Assembly (NCBI RefSeq): GCF_016406125.1
Contig: NZ_CP066339.1
Span: forward strand, 4,898,001-4,962,000
Direction of reading: 5' to 3'
Length of the DNA stretch: 64,000 bases
Source: Alicyclobacillus sp. SO9
Lineage (GTDB): Bacteria; Bacillota; Bacilli; Alicyclobacillales; Alicyclobacillaceae
The position numbers and the translations under genes were made by a program. Below are positions 3,097 to 58,925 of the stretch, piece by piece (within the stretch, counting starts at the first letter, position 1; every line of letters starts with the position of its first letter). The notes beneath the pieces were generated by a model. The model worked only from the letters and a program-made list of their open reading frames with translations, made no database searches and was not told where the DNA came from.

Positions 3097-3150
3097 CGCT
3101 TCGGGGAGGTCGAACATCAAAGAAACCCATGACGATCTCTTTGGTGTACG

Positions 3151-3240
3151 CCGCCACTTTCCTCCGCTGGTATTATCCAGGTCAGGTACGAGGGTTCAAG
3201 GATACCTCCTTGTCTCAGCTACTGCTCCCCTAGTGGCTCC
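3151..3240 (-). ncRNA. TPP riboswitch (THI element)
   Basis: Read on the minus strand, the aptamer shows the conserved THI-box blocks. A closing stem pairs GCCACT near 3240 with AGTGGC near 3152-3157. The CTGAGA motif follows (about 3213-3218), then the ACCTG block and the pyrophosphate-binding GGATAATACCAGC (about 3166-3178). It lies 83 nt upstream of tenA in the same direction, as expected for feedback control of thiamin genes by thiamin pyrophosphate. Confidence 0.95.
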
Positions 3241-3306
3241 ATATTCAATAATGTTCAGTCACAATTAATATATCATAGACGACACGTCTGGCATACCATA
3301 GAAAGT

Positions 3307-3366: not shown

Positions 3367-4713
3367 ATGCAAATCACTTTTAGCATTCAAGGTGAGAAAG
3401 CCGACCTCGTATCCTACTTTTTTGGGAAACATCCTGACCATCCTTATCATCGGGATACAGAATTTGGAATCGTTGAATTTAAATTCATTGAATATACCGA
3501 TGCGTTTGTAAAAGGCTTTGTTGCTTTTCATGCCAATGGACTGGCGATGACACAAGACAGCGGCTATAGAGGGCTGGAGCAATACATTACCGACAGGGAG
3601 TTTTCTCTGTCCACCATTTTTCTCACCAGCATTCGCAACAGTATTGGCCATGTGCTGAGTCCGGACTACGATAACATCGACAGGCTCTATAACGTCACTC
3701 TCGAATTTGGCCCCGTATCCACCAAGTTGTCGGACGAAACGGTGCAGGAACTTCTGACCCCCCTTGGATATGAAGTTTCTATTGAGCACATTCAATCACA
3801 TTACGGATTTGTGTCAGACAGCGGTCAAGTCATGGCCATGACCCTTACCAAGGAAACGGACATTGTCTCTGTCTTCAGGCACCTGTATGTCTTAATTCCT
3901 GTCATGGACAACTACAAGCACCACCGCATTGCAACGAATGAAGTAGAAAAACTCGTCCGGTATGGCAGCGGATGGCTTGAAAGCCACCCTTTGCTTGACT
4001 TTATCCTGAAACGATATCTGCGTTATAAGGCCAATCTCATTGAAAGCACAGTTCAGCAACTTGGGGTGCCTGCCGCACAGCAAGGGACAGATTCGGCGCT
4101 CAAATCAGCCTTAAACGACCTTCGCTATGAAACGTTTTTGCGGGAAATTCAAAAGCTTGGTGTCCAGCAGGTGGTAGATATGGGGGCCGGCGAAGGCAAA
4201 CTGCTTCGCCTGCTTGTGCAAAATCAGAACTTAACCGAAATCATCGCGACCGATCCCGCCGAACAAGCCCTCACCAGCATACACTACCGCCTGGCTGAAT
4301 GGCACAAGGATGGATCTGGCACTGTGCTGGTGGAACCGAAAATCCTGCAAAGCTCCCTCTTCTACCGAGACGAGCGGCTCGTTGACAAGGAGTGCATTCT
4401 CTTGTGTGAAGTCATCGAACACATTGACCGCAGCCGGATAGATGAGACGATGAATCTGTTACTGACCTTTTACCACCCGCGCGTTCTGCTGCTCTCGACG
4501 CCCAACCGGGAGTACAACGAGGTGTATGGGATGGGGAGTGAGTTGAGGCATCGGGATCACCGGTTTGAAATGAGCCGACAGGAATTTCACGATTGGATAA
4601 GGATGCACAGCGAACAATCCGGATACGCCTATGAAATTAAGGGAATTGGAGATATGGACCGTGACTGTGGTCAGCCCACACAAATGGCCGTTCTCATCAG
4701 GGAGGTGAATTGA
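3367..4713 (+). CDS. hen1: 3'-terminal RNA ribose 2'-O-methyltransferase Hen1
   Basis: Bacterial Hen1 methylates the 2'-OH at the 3' end of broken RNA before Pnkp seals it, so the repaired site resists re-cutting by ribotoxins. The 448-residue protein has the bacterial Hen1 N-terminal domain (about 1-240). The methyltransferase follows, with SAM motif DMGAGEGK (271-278), metal-ligand motif EVIEH (Glu348, Glu351, His352), STPN (377-380) and RHRDH (394-398), which supplies the further His ligand. A GAAAGGGA site precedes the ATG. Its stop is one base before the pnkp ATG, so the two are surely co-transcribed and probably translationally coupled. Confidence 0.95.
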   Translation: MQITFSIQGEKADLVSYFFGKHPDHPYHRDTEFGIVEFKFIEYTDAFVKGFVAFHANGLAMTQDSGYRGLEQYITDREFSLSTIFLTSIRNSIGHVLSPDYDNIDRLYNVTLEFGPVSTKLSDETVQELLTPLGYEVSIEHIQSHYGFVSDSGQVMAMTLTKETDIVSVFRHLYVLIPVMDNYKHHRIATNEVEKLVRYGSGWLESHPLLDFILKRYLRYKANLIESTVQQLGVPAAQQGTDSALKSALNDLRYETFLREIQKLGVQQVVDMGAGEGKLLRLLVQNQNLTEIIATDPAEQALTSIHYRLAEWHKDGSGTVLVEPKILQSSLFYRDERLVDKECILLCEVIEHIDRSRIDETMNLLLTFYHPRVLLLSTPNREYNEVYGMGSELRHRDHRFEMSRQEFHDWIRMHSEQSGYAYEIKGIGDMDRDCGQPTQMAVLIREVN

Positions 4714-4714
4714 C

Positions 4715-7525
4715 ATGGAATTGGACTTTCAATATAACGAAATCATCATCTTGTCAGGGCCGTCCAGCACGGGCAAAAGCTACTTTGCCAAGTCACACTT
4801 TACGCCTTCGCAAATCTGCAGCAGCGACGAGTTCAGGCTGGCTATATCCGACGAACCCTTTCAGGCTCAAGCCCCGAGAAGCACTAGGGAAAATGACGGC
4901 GACCCCAACCGCGCCCGAACCACCTCCGCCAAAAGGTTTCAAGCCATGTCACAAGATGCCTTTTGGCTGCTGCACCAAACTGTGGCCATTCGTGCCAAGC
5001 ACGGGCAACTCACGGTTATCGACGCGACCAGCCTGTACCTTGAGGACATCGAATCCTATGTGAAGATAGCTCAAACACAGCATATACCTGTCTCTGTCGT
5101 CGTGTTTAACACACCGCTGGAAACTGCCCTGAAGTATGACGCAACGCGACAGTTCCCACGGGGCGAAAAAAAGCTCAAACAACAGTTTCGCGCAATGAAG
5201 CAGCTTCTAAAACGAAAGCGAGACATGAATCAACTGGGTGTGCGGAACATTTACGTCGTGACAGATGCTGCTCACACCAGCCTGCATATCCAGCCAAACC
5301 GCCTCTATGTAAACCTGGCATCAGGCCTCGACGTGATGGGCGACGGCCACGGCTTGCTGGCATCACGAATTGCCCTAATCAAACAGGCTGGATACGTGCA
5401 GGGAGAAGACGGACTGTACCGTCACCCAGACGGACGGAAACTGGTTTATCTGAACGATGAGACCAGCCGCGGGTCGGAACCTGTCGATGCAAAAAACGTC
5501 GAATACGGGCAGTATCCATCCATTGCGATGATAAACATGATGAAGAAACACGTCGAATCAGGCTTGGCGTATGCTGTCGACTCCAACCATAACTACAAAA
5601 TATGGCGCTGGCTTGAAGGCAGAAAAGTGTCCATGAAACATGGTGACGAAGTGTTTGTGAAAGAGATGGAGGCGTTCGAACAGGAGTACGGAGCAGATAA
5701 GACTGCCGTAGTAAAGAAGGAGTGGGCTCAGTTCTTAAAGTCCTTGCCGTCTCACCTGGTCATTGAGGATGACGGTCATGTTCGTGCTGTGGTTGTCCAC
5801 GCGGGCATTCACGACGACATGATGGGCAAAGAGGATGAGACCGTTCGCGATTTTTGCCGGTTTGGACCGACAGATGGATTGTTGGAGAACGGGAAGCCCA
5901 ACCGTCTCGATTGGACCCAAAACCACCACAACGGTGTGCTGGTTATTTGGGGACATGTCCCTCATCCTGAAGCACAGGTCGTTGGCAACACCATCAACAT
6001 TGACCAAGGCGGCTACTGCGGCCATTACCTGACGATGCTCCGCTACCCGGAGATGGACATCGTCCAGGAAAAGGTTGCACAGAGTTTTGTCCCGGATGAA
6101 GATAATCCAATTTTGCAGTATTACCAAAACCGATTTGATGTACCTTTGATCCAGAAATACAATGAAGGCTTCGAGGTTGCTACCAGGTGGAAGAAACTCC
6201 GTGCTCACCCGGATTACGTAAAGTCTGCTATTGAGACCGTGAGCACACACAGCGCAAGGATCGAAGAAATGTTCTATATACCGCCAACCATGTCTCCCCC
6301 GCCAAAGACGTCTACGTTGGAGGACTATCTGGAACATCCGCAGGAAGCCTTCGATTACTTCGAATCCTTGGGCGTGAAACGCCTTATTGTAGAGAAGAAA
6401 CACATGGGAAGCCGGGCAGTTCTCGCATTGTTCCGCACAGAACAAATTGGGAAACGCTACATCAACCGAGCTACACTGGGGACTATTCTCACTCGCACGA
6501 ACGCTAAGTTTTTCAATGACGAAGATGAGCAGCGGATTGTTCATAAACTGGTTGCGGATTTTGCACCGTACTTCGCTGAAATGAACACGGATGTACTGCT
6601 GCTTGATGCGGAAATACTGCCGTGGAACTTGAAAGCAGCTCATCTCATTGAAAACCAGTACGGCCTTGTTGCAGACGCAGCACTGTATACACGTGAGAAG
6701 CACCTGCAGTCGCTCTCGGAGTTTAAGGAAAAACACCAGTCAGACAGGGCGCCGAACGCAGGGGCTGGTCTGGATGACAGTGGAAGGGACGGAGTGCAGA
6801 GACAGCAGGATCTGCAGGATGGGCCACAGGGCGTGCAGGGATCGCTCGGAGTGCCGAAAGGACCGCAGGGTCCGCAAGGCAGGCAAATTGATGTGGAGAT
6901 TGCTGCCGCTGAGCAAAAACTGGACAACGCCCGCCGGTTTCAACGGGCCTTCACCTACTTCTGTTGGAACCTGGACAAGCCTGACGCCATTCAGATTGCC
7001 CCGTTTCACATACTGGGTTTCGACTCGACGTCACACTTCGACAAGACCCACGAATGGCATATGCAGCAAGCACAGCGGTTGGCAGCTCTGAGTGATCTCG
7101 TCATTGACACGCCATACCGTGTGGTCGAAATGTCGGATGAAAAAGCGAAAGCTGACATAATTGACTGGTGGGCGGAAACCACGTCTGAAGGACACGAAGG
7201 CTTTGTGTTCAAGCCGCTCAATTTTATCGCAACCTCTGCACATCGCGATGGCAATAAGGCTGATGAATTGATTCAACCTGCCATCAAAGTTCGCGGACGT
7301 GAGTATTTGCGTATTATCTATGGCATGGATTATTTGGAGCCGGAAAACCTCGAAAAATTAAAAAAGCGCTCCACCAAGAAGAAAATGCGGAACGCCTTGA
7401 ACGAATTTATGCTGTCTATAGAGAGTGTCGAGCGTTTTTTAAAACTGGACAGAGTGGACAGAATTCACGAGTGTGTCTTAGCGGCGATGGCTTATGAAAG
7501 TGAACCCATGGATCCCCGGCTTTGA
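4715..7525 (+). CDS. pnkp: Polynucleotide kinase-phosphatase-ligase Pnkp (RNA repair)
   Basis: End-healing and sealing enzyme of the Pnkp/Hen1 RNA-repair system. The kinase domain carries P-loop GPSSTGKS (15-22). The phosphatase domain keeps metal ligands Asp210 and His212 (GDGHG), Asp248, Arg252, Asn291, His292, His362, His414 and Asp430, but the usual GNHD block reads DSNHN. The ligase has lysine-nucleophile motif KHMG (Lys562), DAEILPWN (631-638), EGFVFKP and the KVRGREYLRIIYG lid. At 936 residues it is longer than the roughly 850-870 usual for the family. The excess lies in a polar insertion in the kinase (about 48-78) and a collagen-like GPQG-rich insertion in the ligase (about 675-727). 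GGGAGG precedes the ATG. Confidence 0.94.
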   Translation: MELDFQYNEIIILSGPSSTGKSYFAKSHFTPSQICSSDEFRLAISDEPFQAQAPRSTRENDGDPNRARTTSAKRFQAMSQDAFWLLHQTVAIRAKHGQLTVIDATSLYLEDIESYVKIAQTQHIPVSVVVFNTPLETALKYDATRQFPRGEKKLKQQFRAMKQLLKRKRDMNQLGVRNIYVVTDAAHTSLHIQPNRLYVNLASGLDVMGDGHGLLASRIALIKQAGYVQGEDGLYRHPDGRKLVYLNDETSRGSEPVDAKNVEYGQYPSIAMINMMKKHVESGLAYAVDSNHNYKIWRWLEGRKVSMKHGDEVFVKEMEAFEQEYGADKTAVVKKEWAQFLKSLPSHLVIEDDGHVRAVVVHAGIHDDMMGKEDETVRDFCRFGPTDGLLENGKPNRLDWTQNHHNGVLVIWGHVPHPEAQVVGNTINIDQGGYCGHYLTMLRYPEMDIVQEKVAQSFVPDEDNPILQYYQNRFDVPLIQKYNEGFEVATRWKKLRAHPDYVKSAIETVSTHSARIEEMFYIPPTMSPPPKTSTLEDYLEHPQEAFDYFESLGVKRLIVEKKHMGSRAVLALFRTEQIGKRYINRATLGTILTRTNAKFFNDEDEQRIVHKLVADFAPYFAEMNTDVLLLDAEILPWNLKAAHLIENQYGLVADAALYTREKHLQSLSEFKEKHQSDRAPNAGAGLDDSGRDGVQRQQDLQDGPQGVQGSLGVPKGPQGPQGRQIDVEIAAAEQKLDNARRFQRAFTYFCWNLDKPDAIQIAPFHILGFDSTSHFDKTHEWHMQQAQRLAALSDLVIDTPYRVVEMSDEKAKADIIDWWAETTSEGHEGFVFKPLNFIATSAHRDGNKADELIQPAIKVRGREYLRIIYGMDYLEPENLEKLKKRSTKKKMRNALNEFMLSIESVERFLKLDRVDRIHECVLAAMAYESEPMDPRL

Positions 7526-8819: not shown

Positions 8820-10122
8820 GTGTCAAGGTCCTCGGAGGGCCAGGGGGCCGATCAGGGCGGGCTGGGCGGGCTGGGGGCTTGCGCCGGGGACGTGCGCCGG
8901 GGGCGATTAGTGCCTGAAAAGATCCCTATTCGCGGAGGGGCGATGGAATAGGGATCGCAAAGATCCCTAATGCCACCGGGCCCGAGGCATTAGTGTCATA
9001 AATGGACACTAAGTTGGGGAGCGTCGGGCGGGAGCCTGGGCGTTAGGGTGCAACGGGATCCCTATTGTAGAGGGCCTGTTGGGGATAGTGATCCCATCGA
9101 TCACTATCCTCTGGCGGGTGTCGTAATAGGGAGCAAAAGGATCACTAACCACCGTGACAACGAACACATCCGACGGCCCGGCCGCCCCGCATCTGTACAT
9201 TTTCTGCCAATTGCCCACTCAACGCCAGCTGCAATGGACAATGGGAACTTTTCCGCTTATCTCTATTGCCGATCCCGCTGCTGGCAGGCGAGGCTGGGGC
9301 GTGCGCCGGGGACGTGCGCCGGGGGCGATTAGTGCCTGAAAAGATCCTTATTCGCGGAGGGGCGATGGAATAGGGAGCGCAAAGATCCCTATTGCCACCG
9401 GGCCCGAGGCATTAGTGTCATAAATGGACACTAAGTTGGGGAGCGTCGGGCGGGAGCCTGGGCGTTAGGGTGCAACGGGATCCCTATTGTAGAGGGCCTG
9501 TTGGGGATAGTGATCCCATCGATCACTATCCTCTGGCGGGTGTCGTAATAGGGAGCAAAAGGATCACTAACCACCGTGACAACGAACACATCCGACGGCC
9601 CGGCCGCCCCGCATCTGTACATTTGCTGCCAATTGCCCACTCAACGCCAGCTGCAATGGACAATGGGAACTTTTCCGCTTATCTCTATTGCCGATCCCGC
9701 TACTGGCAGGCGGGACGGGGGCGTGCGCGGGGAGTCGGGAGGCGATTAGTGTCCGGAAAGATCCCTATTCGCGGAGGGGCGATGGAATAGGGAGCGCAAA
9801 GATCCCTATTGCCACCGGGCCCGAGGCATTAGTGTCATAAATGGACACTAAGTTGGGGAGCGTCGGGCGGGAGCCTGGGCGTTAGGGTGCAACGGGATCC
9901 CTATTGTAGAGGGCCTGTTGGGGATAGTGATCCCATCGATCACTATCCTCTGGCGGGTGTCGTAATAGGGAGCAAAAGGATCACTAACCACCGTGACAAC
10001 GAACACATCCGACGGCCCGGCCGCCCGCATCTGTACATTTGCTGCCAATTGCCCACTCAACGCCCGTTGCAATGGACAATGGGAACTTTTCCGCTTATCT
10101 CTATTGCCGATCCCGCTGCTGG
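8820..10122. repeat. Tandem hairpin-rich repeat array, family A (three units)
   Basis: Three direct units start at 8903, 9325 and 9742 (periods 422 and 417 bp). They are nearly identical, preceded by a GC-rich partial unit and ending abruptly at 10122. Each unit is a chain of perfect inverted repeats. In unit 1 these are 8921-8931 with 8946-8956 (11 bp), 8967-8974 with 8986-8993 (8 bp), 8990-8997 with 9005-9012 (8 bp) and 9083-9093 with 9099-9109 (11 bp). Nearly all arms carry a word of the form C(A/C)CTA(A/T) in one or other orientation, about 13 per unit. ORFs inside repeat exactly with the unit and are not taken as genes. A diverged fourth copy lies at 25760-26016. Confidence 0.9.
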
Positions 10123-25740: not shown

Positions 25741-25759
25741 AGTATGACTAAATATGTCC

Positions 25760-26016
25760 TCGAAAGATCACTATCGGCGGAGGGGCAATGCCATTGTGAT
25801 CGCAAAGATCCCTAATGCGACCTAGCTCAGTACATTAGTGTCATCAAAGGACACTAATGTGGGGAGAGGCAGAATGGAACGTGGATGATAGGGAGCAAAG
25901 GGATCCCTATTTTAGACGGCCTGTTGGTGATAGTGATCGAATCGATCACTATCATGTGGCGGGCATCATAATAAGGAGCAGAAGGATCACTAACCAACGC
26001 GCCAACGATTAAATGG
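25760..26016. repeat. Dispersed, diverged copy of family A repeat
   Basis: About 260 bp collinear with the middle of the 8903-10122 units: the same order of hairpins, including TTAGTGTC with GACACTAA and GATAGTGATC with GATCACTATC. Many substitutions occur outside the arms. It lies between the IS110 element and pxpC. Arms seem better kept than loops, which suggests that the paired form matters. Confidence 0.85.
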
Positions 26017-56425: not shown

Positions 56426-57101
56426 ATGAAGACTCCTCTCTGAATGTAGTTACGAGCAAGGCTGCCCTGTTGCCGGTCATCCGTGCAGCATTGGCCCCCT
56501 TCTGCATACGTTCTGCGTAGAGCACAATGCACACTTGCAGTACACATTGATCCCTTGTTCGGAAGATGTAGGTCGCGGCTATTTTCTGCAGATTTTGAGA
56601 AATAAGCAGGTAGCTGAAAGGACTAAAGAAAATTCACACCATAGCCCGGACTACCCAAGACGACTCTGTTTGAGCTGTGACAAACCGAGACGTAGCGACA
56701 CAAACTCAGAGACGTCCGGAACAAGGAACAAGGAACAAGGGGCAAAAGAAGGGACACAAATAGACTGTACCCCAACGAATATTCGGACTTATCCGATACC
56801 AGATGTCCGCTACTCGGTGGTACAAGCTTGCCTCCTTCCAGACTCGCTTACGTTGAAACCGGCTTTCGTCCGCAGGTGGGAAAAAGGTGCTTAATGTGGT
56901 ACCACAAGGATCTGTTTACATTTATGATAATAATAAGTTGCACGAAATATTTCAAGAGTCCCTTTTTTGTCACATTTGTATTTTTACCATGTGTGTGACT
57001 TTATGGATGTGACTGGAGAGGGCTGGAGGGCTCAAAGGCTCAAAGGCTCAAAGGCTGAAAGGCTGAAATAGGGGGGGCGCGGGCAAACGGGGCACGGGGG
57101 C
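56426..57101. other. Intergenic region upstream of cytochrome b operon
   Basis: About 675 bases. It should contain the cytochrome operon promoter (minus). Short direct repeats occur: GGAACAA three times near 56719-56741 and a 10 bp GGCTCAAAGG-type repeat four to five times near 57028-57064. A GTGGTACCAC palindrome lies at 56896-56905. No gene is supported. Confidence 0.5.
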
Positions 57102-58925
57102 GAAATAAGGATCCCAGACGAGCTTATTTCTGCAGGGCACGATGCGCGGCATTAAATAAGCTCCCGAAATGAGCTTATTTGCGTCAAAATGGCTCTTTCG
57201 CAGCCAAATTGGGAGATTAAGCACTTGGGAAGGGCTTATTCACGTCGATTTGAGGCCATAGTTGCAAATAAGCGCTTCAGGGATCTCTATTCGCAGGCCT
57301 GCCTGCCCAAAACCCCCAGCCCGCATCCTCCGGGTCCTTCGACTTCGTTTTAGGTAGTGGATAAACGGGTCACCCCGTTTATCTTCCTTCTATGGTTCTT
57401 CATTTGTCTACTCGAAGACCGCGACCTAACCGCCTCGAATGGTGCCGGTTTAAGGGGATTCGGGGCGCGGGCACACGGGGCACGGGGGGCGAAATAAGGA
57501 TCCCAGACGAGCTTATTTCCACAGGGCACGAGGCACGGCATTAAATAAGCTCCCGAAATGAGCTTATTTGAGTCAAAACGGCTCTTTTGCAGCCAAATTT
57601 GCAGATTAAGCACTTGGGAAGCGCTTATTTGCGTTGATTTGAGGCCATAGTTGCAAATAAGCGCTTCAGGGATCTCTATTCGCAAGCCTGCCTGCCGAAA
57701 CCCCCAGCCTGCATCCTCCGGGTCCTTCGACTTCGTTTTAGGTAGTGGATAAACGGGTCACCCCGTTTATCTTCCTTCTATGGTTCTTCATTTTGTCTTA
57801 CTCGGAGACCGCGACCTAACGGCCTCGAACGGTGCCGGTTTAAGGGGATTCGGGTGCGCGGCACAGCGGGGCACCGGGGCGAAATAAGGATCCCAGACGA
57901 GCTTATTTCCACAGGGCACGAGGCGCGGCATTAAATAAGCTCCCGAAATGAGCTTATTTGCACCAAAACAGCCTGTTTGCAGCGAAATTTGGAGATTAAG
58001 CACTTGGGAAGCGCTTATTTGCGTTGATTTGAGGCCATACTCGCAAATAAGCGCTTCAGGGATCTCTATTCGCAAGCCTGCCTGCCCAAACCCCGGGCCC
58101 GCATCCTCCGGGCCCTTCAACTTCGGTTTAGGTAGTGGATAAACGGGTCACCCCGTTTATCTTCCTTCTATGGTTCTTCATTTGTCTTACTCGGAGACCG
58201 CGACCTAACCGCCTCGAACGGTGCCGATTTAAAGGGATTCGGGTGCGCAAATAGGGGCTGGCCGCGGCGGGGTAAGGCACACGGCGCACGGGGGGCGAAA
58301 TAAGGATCCCAGACGAGCTTATTTCTGCAGGGCACGATGCGCGGCATTGAATAAGCTCCCGAAATGAGCTTATTTGCGTCAAAACGGCTCTTTTGCAGCC
58401 AAATTGGGAGATTAAGCACTTGGGAAGCGCTTATTTGCGTTGATTTGAGGCCATAGTCGCAAATAAGCGCTTCAGGGATCTCTATTCGCAGGCCTGCCTG
58501 CCCAAACCCCCGGCCTGCATCCTCCGGGTCCTTCGACTTCGTTTTAGGTAGTGGATAAACGGGTCACCCCGTTTAGCTTCCTTCTATGGTTCTTCATTTG
58601 TCTTACTCGGAGACCGCGACCTAACGGCCTCGAACGGTGCCGATTTAAAGGGATTCGGGTGCGCAAATAGGGGCTGGCCGCGGCGGGGTAAGGCACACGG
58701 CACACGGGGACGAAATAAGGATCCCAGACGAGCTTATTTCTGCAGGGCACGAGGCACGGCATTAAATAAGCTCCCGAAATGAGCTTATTTGCGTCAAAAC
58801 GGCTCTTTTGCAGCCAAATTTGCACATTAAGCACTTGGGAAGCGCTTATTCACGTTGATTTGAGGCCATAGTCGCAAATAAGCGCTTCAGGGATCTCTAT
58901 TCGCAGGCTGGCCTGCCAGCCGCAT
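57102..58925. repeat. Tandem hairpin-rich repeat array, family B (five cores)
   Basis: Cores begin at 57102, 57491, 57881, 58297 and 58712; spacing is 389, 390, 416 and 415 bp. The last two intervals carry an extra block of about 26 bp (GCAAATAGGGGCTGGCCGCG and onward). Each core is a row of inverted repeats based on GCTTATT/AATAAGC. The longest, in core 4, pairs 58424-58439 with 58458-58473, 16 bp without a mismatch. Another 10 bp stem, GATAAACGGG with CCCGTTTATC, lies in the linker. ORFs repeat with the unit and are not genes. Confidence 0.9.

Follow-up and report, generated by a model that had tools for sequence, protein, structure and literature searches.

What are the three near-identical tandem units at 8865..10122 (+ strand), and what could they do for the chromosome that carries them? 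The window, that is, the whole stretch of 64,000 nucleotides analyzed here, covers bases 4,898,001–4,962,000 of the 5.196-Mb chromosomal contig of Alicyclobacillus sp. SO9; the genome has one more contig of 90 kb, and dnaA lies at base 367 of the chromosomal contig. The first-pass annotation had described three units in which nearly all short inverted repeats use one word, CMCTAW, about seven times forward and six times reversed, and it had offered a protein-binding array, a non-coding RNA, and a mobile unit as possible roles. The units are indeed present as a tandem array of cores and linkers. The copies begin at 8865, 9287, and 9704, with periods of 422 and 417 bp, and over 300 bp copies 2 and 3 are 97% and 90% identical to copy 1. 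The word count was also near the truth: CMCTAW occurs 6, 5, and 6 times in units 1, 2, and 3, and the reverse word WTAGKG 6 times in each. Together they amount to 11–12 per unit; in 200 shuffles the joint count of the two words averaged 0.6 and never exceeded 4.

Each unit contains six 21-bp dyads of the form TARKGATC-N5-GATCMYTA (half-site matrix WTARKGATC) at fixed spacing, a feature that the annotation had missed together with the occurrence of the unit across the chromosome. The dyad start-to-start steps of 41/42/53/42/41 bp give a 245-bp core with mirror-symmetric spacing. All three cores lie on the + strand: core 1 at 8906..9150 (dyad starts 8908, 8949, 8991, 9044, 9086, and 9127), core 2 at 9328..9572 (9330, 9371, 9413, 9466, 9508, and 9549), and core 3 at 9745..9989 (9747, 9788, 9830, 9883, 9925, and 9966). 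The linkers between cores 1 and 2 (9151..9327) and between cores 2 and 3 (9573..9744), as well as the trailing linker after core 3 (9990..10122), are common, among the compared loci, to an array at 4.968 Mb (L068). Dyad 5 of core 1 (TAGTGATCCCATCGATCACTA, 9086..9106) is the best-conserved dyad, with 92% of cells paired in helix 5, and its counterpart at other loci is an insertion point of IS110. Of two overlapping stems described earlier, that at 8990–9012 is a true dyad; the one at 8967–8993 (CTAATGCC...GGCATTAG) is an accidental pairing of two adjacent dyads, and most other copies do not keep it. The window holds one additional single core of the same family (25751..25995, + strand), in which dyad 1 has decayed, and a second array of another family, B (57073..58917, + strand). 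Family B comprises approximately 4.6 units of about 416 bp with four 21-bp dyads per unit, the half-site TAAGCKC, and symmetric spacing of 51/61/51 bp, the outer 51-bp steps being taken from inspection of the sequence itself.

The genome contains many further copies. With a single unit as the query, the genome gave 80 matches that were 72–98% identical. A search model that uses sequence only and was built from 50 copies found the core at least 113 times, partial copies counted, among the best 150 of 911 first-look candidates that were scored. The 113 copies group into 62 clusters, or 59 loci once neighbors within 5 kb are merged; at six phased dyads per core, the family has roughly 600 dyads per chromosome. 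Since this model tracks the A-type word, the word of the array described above, both the locus count and the occurrence of arrays in relatives are minimum estimates. A strict dyad pattern matched 167 times in the genome and not once in a reversed control or in 60 relatives, and the exact 22-base dyad had no match in a collection of 85,000 genomes of other species. A recent amplification or assembly artefact, which the annotation had raised against the units, is excluded, since the copies have diverged by up to 28% from the query; the position of dnaA at base 367 of a 5.2-Mb contig also speaks against it. A phage or plasmid origin was rejected, as plasmid and phage records gave no match to the array and viral contigs lack the two-dyad pattern of the A word. 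We found no description of such arrays in the open PMC literature.

The geometry is the conserved trait of the arrays. When all dyad-to-dyad distances of up to 130 bp in the whole genome were collected, 433 fell at 40–43 bp and 102 at 51–53 bp. The individual values are 41 bp (n=273), 42 bp (n=156), 53 bp (n=88), and 52 bp (n=13), with few others. Linkers between tandem copies vary widely, from about 104 to 889 bp. Comparison of 33 loci showed mean identities of 87% in the arms and 61% in the spacers, and in all 528 pairs from these loci each spacer length was equal within 1 bp. Even in the most diverged pairs, in which the spacers are 40–50% identical, the arms average 85%. At 10.4–10.5 bp per turn, the six sites deviate from a common helical phase by no more than about 1.8 bp and, as judged by distance alone, appear to share it. 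A protein-coding repeat is excluded, as the 41-bp spacing is no multiple of three, and the earlier statement that no gene family explains the units stands.

Gene context was taken from a codon-usage gene caller, the calls of which are heuristic. The 53 intergenic regions that hold arrays comprise 22 convergent, 29 co-directional, and 2 divergent gene pairs; the background, formed by the remaining gaps of 150 bp or more in the same stretches, has 5, 24, and 10. The convergent excess and the divergent deficit each have a Fisher p of 0.003. The array in the window is one of the two divergent cases and lies between a PadR gene and a DUF3238 gene. Beside co-directional genes, the array strand is the same in 17 cases and opposite in 12. 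With dnaA as the reference, 28 of the 59 merged loci fall within 0.5 Mb (11.4 expected, p=9e-7). The array strand seemed at first to go with the replication arm, but this impression became weaker when the full set of loci was considered. A survey of 106 flanking proteins matched 177 Pfam families, none in more than four members, so no recurring neighbor gene was found. Genes that flank the arrays of relatives do not mark equivalent places in the SO9 genome. Both results reject a common neighbor gene or a conserved chromosomal position.

On balance, we lean towards reading the arrays as dispersed, DNA-level protein-binding arrays that may act as architectural nodes. The part of this reading that concerns binding is probable. 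A dimer of a putative sequence-specific protein would bind each 21-bp dyad, in which two TARKGATC half-sites face each other across 5 bp. Because neighboring dyads are four or five helical turns apart, the dimers would all occupy one side of the DNA and could assemble there as a single mirror-symmetric complex of six (3 + 3). Changes in the arms are single-sided, like those of degenerate operators, and the half-sites vary independently. Such independence, together with whole-turn spacing, mirror symmetry, indifference to strand, and arms that are kept in diverged copies, argues for a dimeric protein that reads double-stranded DNA and assembles on one face of the helix. Of the three roles first proposed, a binding array is therefore the best supported, by the fixed spacing, the independent half-sites, and an array strand untied to neighboring genes. 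Selection on spacing could, on the other hand, serve a transposase or recombinase and not a host protein. No gene recurs among the neighbors, and the binder is putative.

The architectural part is tentative. Complexes at about 60 intergenic places would anchor, bridge, or compact the chromosome, being placed so that promoters are left undisturbed and lying more densely near the replication origin. We infer this role, like the protein and its binding, from the pattern of sites; dispersal, promoter avoidance, and origin bias suggest it. Against promoter avoidance, the window's own array sits in a divergent pair. Origin clustering may be due, at least in part, to short-range spread, and the six arrays of the relative Alicyclobacillus sp. 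ALC3 (G020) are only weakly biased to the origin. If the arrays are docking sites, some 600 phased sites per chromosome would form an unusually dense sequence-specific scaffold for a bacterium.

The architectural logic may be comparable to that of the sites of Noc (NBS), SlmA (SBS), and RefZ (RBM). These are palindromic or near-palindromic protein sites, dispersed over the chromosome and uneven along the origin–terminus axis, as are the arrays here, which share with them a degenerate dyad with independently varying half-sites and the bias towards the origin. However, each of those systems uses individual sites, numbering about 5–70 in a genome, and the arrays, with six phased dyads per core, are much larger and more regular. 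Noc is ParB-like; an expanded ParB/Noc family was rejected, as the SO9 genome has only two genes of the ParB type (ParB_N). In plasmid iteron or centromere-like arrays, one protein likewise has several sites at helically regular intervals, usually at one locus per replicon; this possible likeness is limited by the approximately 60 chromosomal loci found here. CIRCE (HrcA) and CRP operators resemble single half-sites and differ in arm spacing.

The same geometry occurs with other words in relatives. Four array-bearing relatives were found with the A-type search model. Alicyclobacillus sp. ALC3 has 21-bp dyads with the word TAWGYGATC every 42 bp in about six arrays, and Alicyclobacillus sp. HOT.MB2.91 (G005) has 21-bp dyads AAAGCGATC...GATCGGAAT every 42 bp. 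In the other two, 21-bp dyads recur every 41 bp (TAGCGGTC...GGGCCTTA, G006) and every 53 bp (TTAAGGAAC...ATGCCTAA, G007). The genes next to these arrays are likewise unrelated to each other. With the family B array included, at least five different words are found at distances close to four, five, or six turns; geometry that is kept while the word changes separates geometry from sequence. A GATC-N5-GATC pattern at 42 bp was searched in the 85,000 genomes, and among the matches listed outside Alicyclobacillus most are single or resemble coding repeats, with the exception of one Bacteroidales contig. This metagenome-assembled contig (L146, JAISDP010000049.1) carries at 1–300 a tandem array with a 41-bp period, the dyads of which read AACAGATC-TTTCG-GATCTGTT; it would place the array geometry in another phylum, and mis-binning is possible.

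A broader reading, which we regard as possible and rather doubtful, is that the arrays belong to a lineage-specific chromosome-organizing system of the Alicyclobacillaceae. A dimeric protein family would then dock on satellite-like arrays whose word changes between genomes and array families, with the spacing rule of four or five turns and mirror-symmetric cores being kept. Such a system would be akin to eukaryotic centromere satellites, which evolve rapidly.

The main rival to the binding-array reading is purely selfish spread, which we consider somewhat unlikely. The arrays would be non-autonomous REP/BIME- or MITE-like repeats, the unit being copied by a transposase or recombinase and its intergenic placement reflecting tolerance. 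When the cores were masked and the flanks compared, linker sub-families common to distant loci appeared, so whole units, linkers included, have moved or been copied between loci, without established end sequences or target duplications. To this extent the mobile-unit proposal of the first-pass annotation gains support; against it, no transposase is linked to the arrays and no recurring gene adjoins them. PF01797 (Y1/RAYT transposase) had no match in the whole genome in a search of which the control was positive in 5 known genomes, and a REP with its RAYT is thereby ruled out. In other respects the arrays do look like REPs/BIMEs: many extragenic palindromes per genome (113 copies at ~60 intergenic loci), arranged in arrays, with a species-specific word, and entered by IS110-type elements as REPs are. 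Most lie downstream of genes, beside convergent or co-directional pairs, just as REPs lie between unidirectional and convergent ORFs (PMC3733652). The REP definition requires, however, that the palindrome carry GTAG or CGTC as a tag at its foot (PMC3733652), and the WTARKGATC half-site has neither. REP palindromes are maintained through complementary mutations (PMC2817692); the array dyads are not, as covariation falls below that of shuffles. Unlike REPs, the arrays have a fixed, mirror-symmetric 41/42/53-bp spacing, which is undescribed in the REP literature cited here. Furthermore, the most divergent copies keep arms and spacing, whereas decayed copies should be numerous if the family were purely selfish. 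Selfish spread and host use are not mutually exclusive, as a repeat may spread and yet be used. If the arrays are selfish, they represent a class of REP-like repeats that spread although the usual REP transposase is absent.

Less probable is an insulator or roadblock, in which an array-bound protein halts RNA polymerases or takes up supercoils between convergent genes. The enrichment of convergent pairs (22/53 against 5/39) and the rarity of divergent ones fit this proposal, but convergent pairs account for less than half of the loci, the array strand is untied to the gene strand, and six phased sites seem beyond the need of termination.

That the arrays are transcribed, structured RNAs that fold through many equivalent arms is very improbable. 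One unit alone does fold better than dinucleotide shuffles (z=−4.65), as would any DNA so rich in inverted repeats. Nevertheless, over 50 distinct copies, 76.6% of the cells in the six stems are paired against 76.9% in shuffles, and the Watson–Crick fraction equals that for independent columns. Double-change pairs number 8 against 12.9 in shuffles, and the covariation score is 0.040 against 0.047, with 500 of 500 shuffles scoring at least as high. The RNAalifold consensus reaches −2.1 kcal mol−1 over 247 columns, and cross-pairing between the arms of the first four dyads gave no clear signal. Rfam holds no family for the arrays; its only match in the window is a TPP riboswitch elsewhere. The indifference of the array strand to neighboring genes points the same way. 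We rejected both the non-coding RNA option and its alternative-pairing form, since the arms do not covary across the 50 copies and there is no shared fold. Streptococcal BOX repeats, which are regarded as RNA stem-loops, are similar modular intergenic arrays with a tandem unit of about 42–45 bp, but RNA pairing is rejected for the arrays here. Nor are the arrays CRISPR arrays, judged on the spacers, which are homologous between copies and not unique. Whether docking sites or selfish repeats, such arrays can readily be taken for RNA genes or CRISPR arrays.

The idea that the arrays are landing pads selected as targets of a resident IS110 element is barely credible: an IS110-family element does sit at one identical base of dyad 5 at three loci (L068 3287–4507, L065 3096–4376, and L050 2243–3553, the last inversely oriented and within the mirror half-site), but it is known in only three of ~60 loci, and IS110 elements target REPs without having made them.

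Another array copy is split by a Mutator/IS256-type transposase gene (L043, 2480–3676). At 227.9–232.3 kb of the chromosome (L046), two near-identical two-core arrays stand 3.7 kb apart with genes between them, which suggests a recent local duplication. Minisatellites with a period of 5–17 bp directly precede or follow many arrays, nearly every locus having a different one; examples are L053 1464–1560, L114 2176–2358, L126 2183–2303, and window 8855–8905 and 57029–57068, among others. The TPP riboswitch lies at window 3142–3241 on the − strand and exceeds the Rfam gathering score. At window 4715–7525 (+ strand), a gene encodes a 936-residue protein that combines PNKP ligase and AAA_33 domains, with a gene for 448 residues (3367–4713) immediately upstream. 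The pair looks like a bacterial RNA-repair operon.
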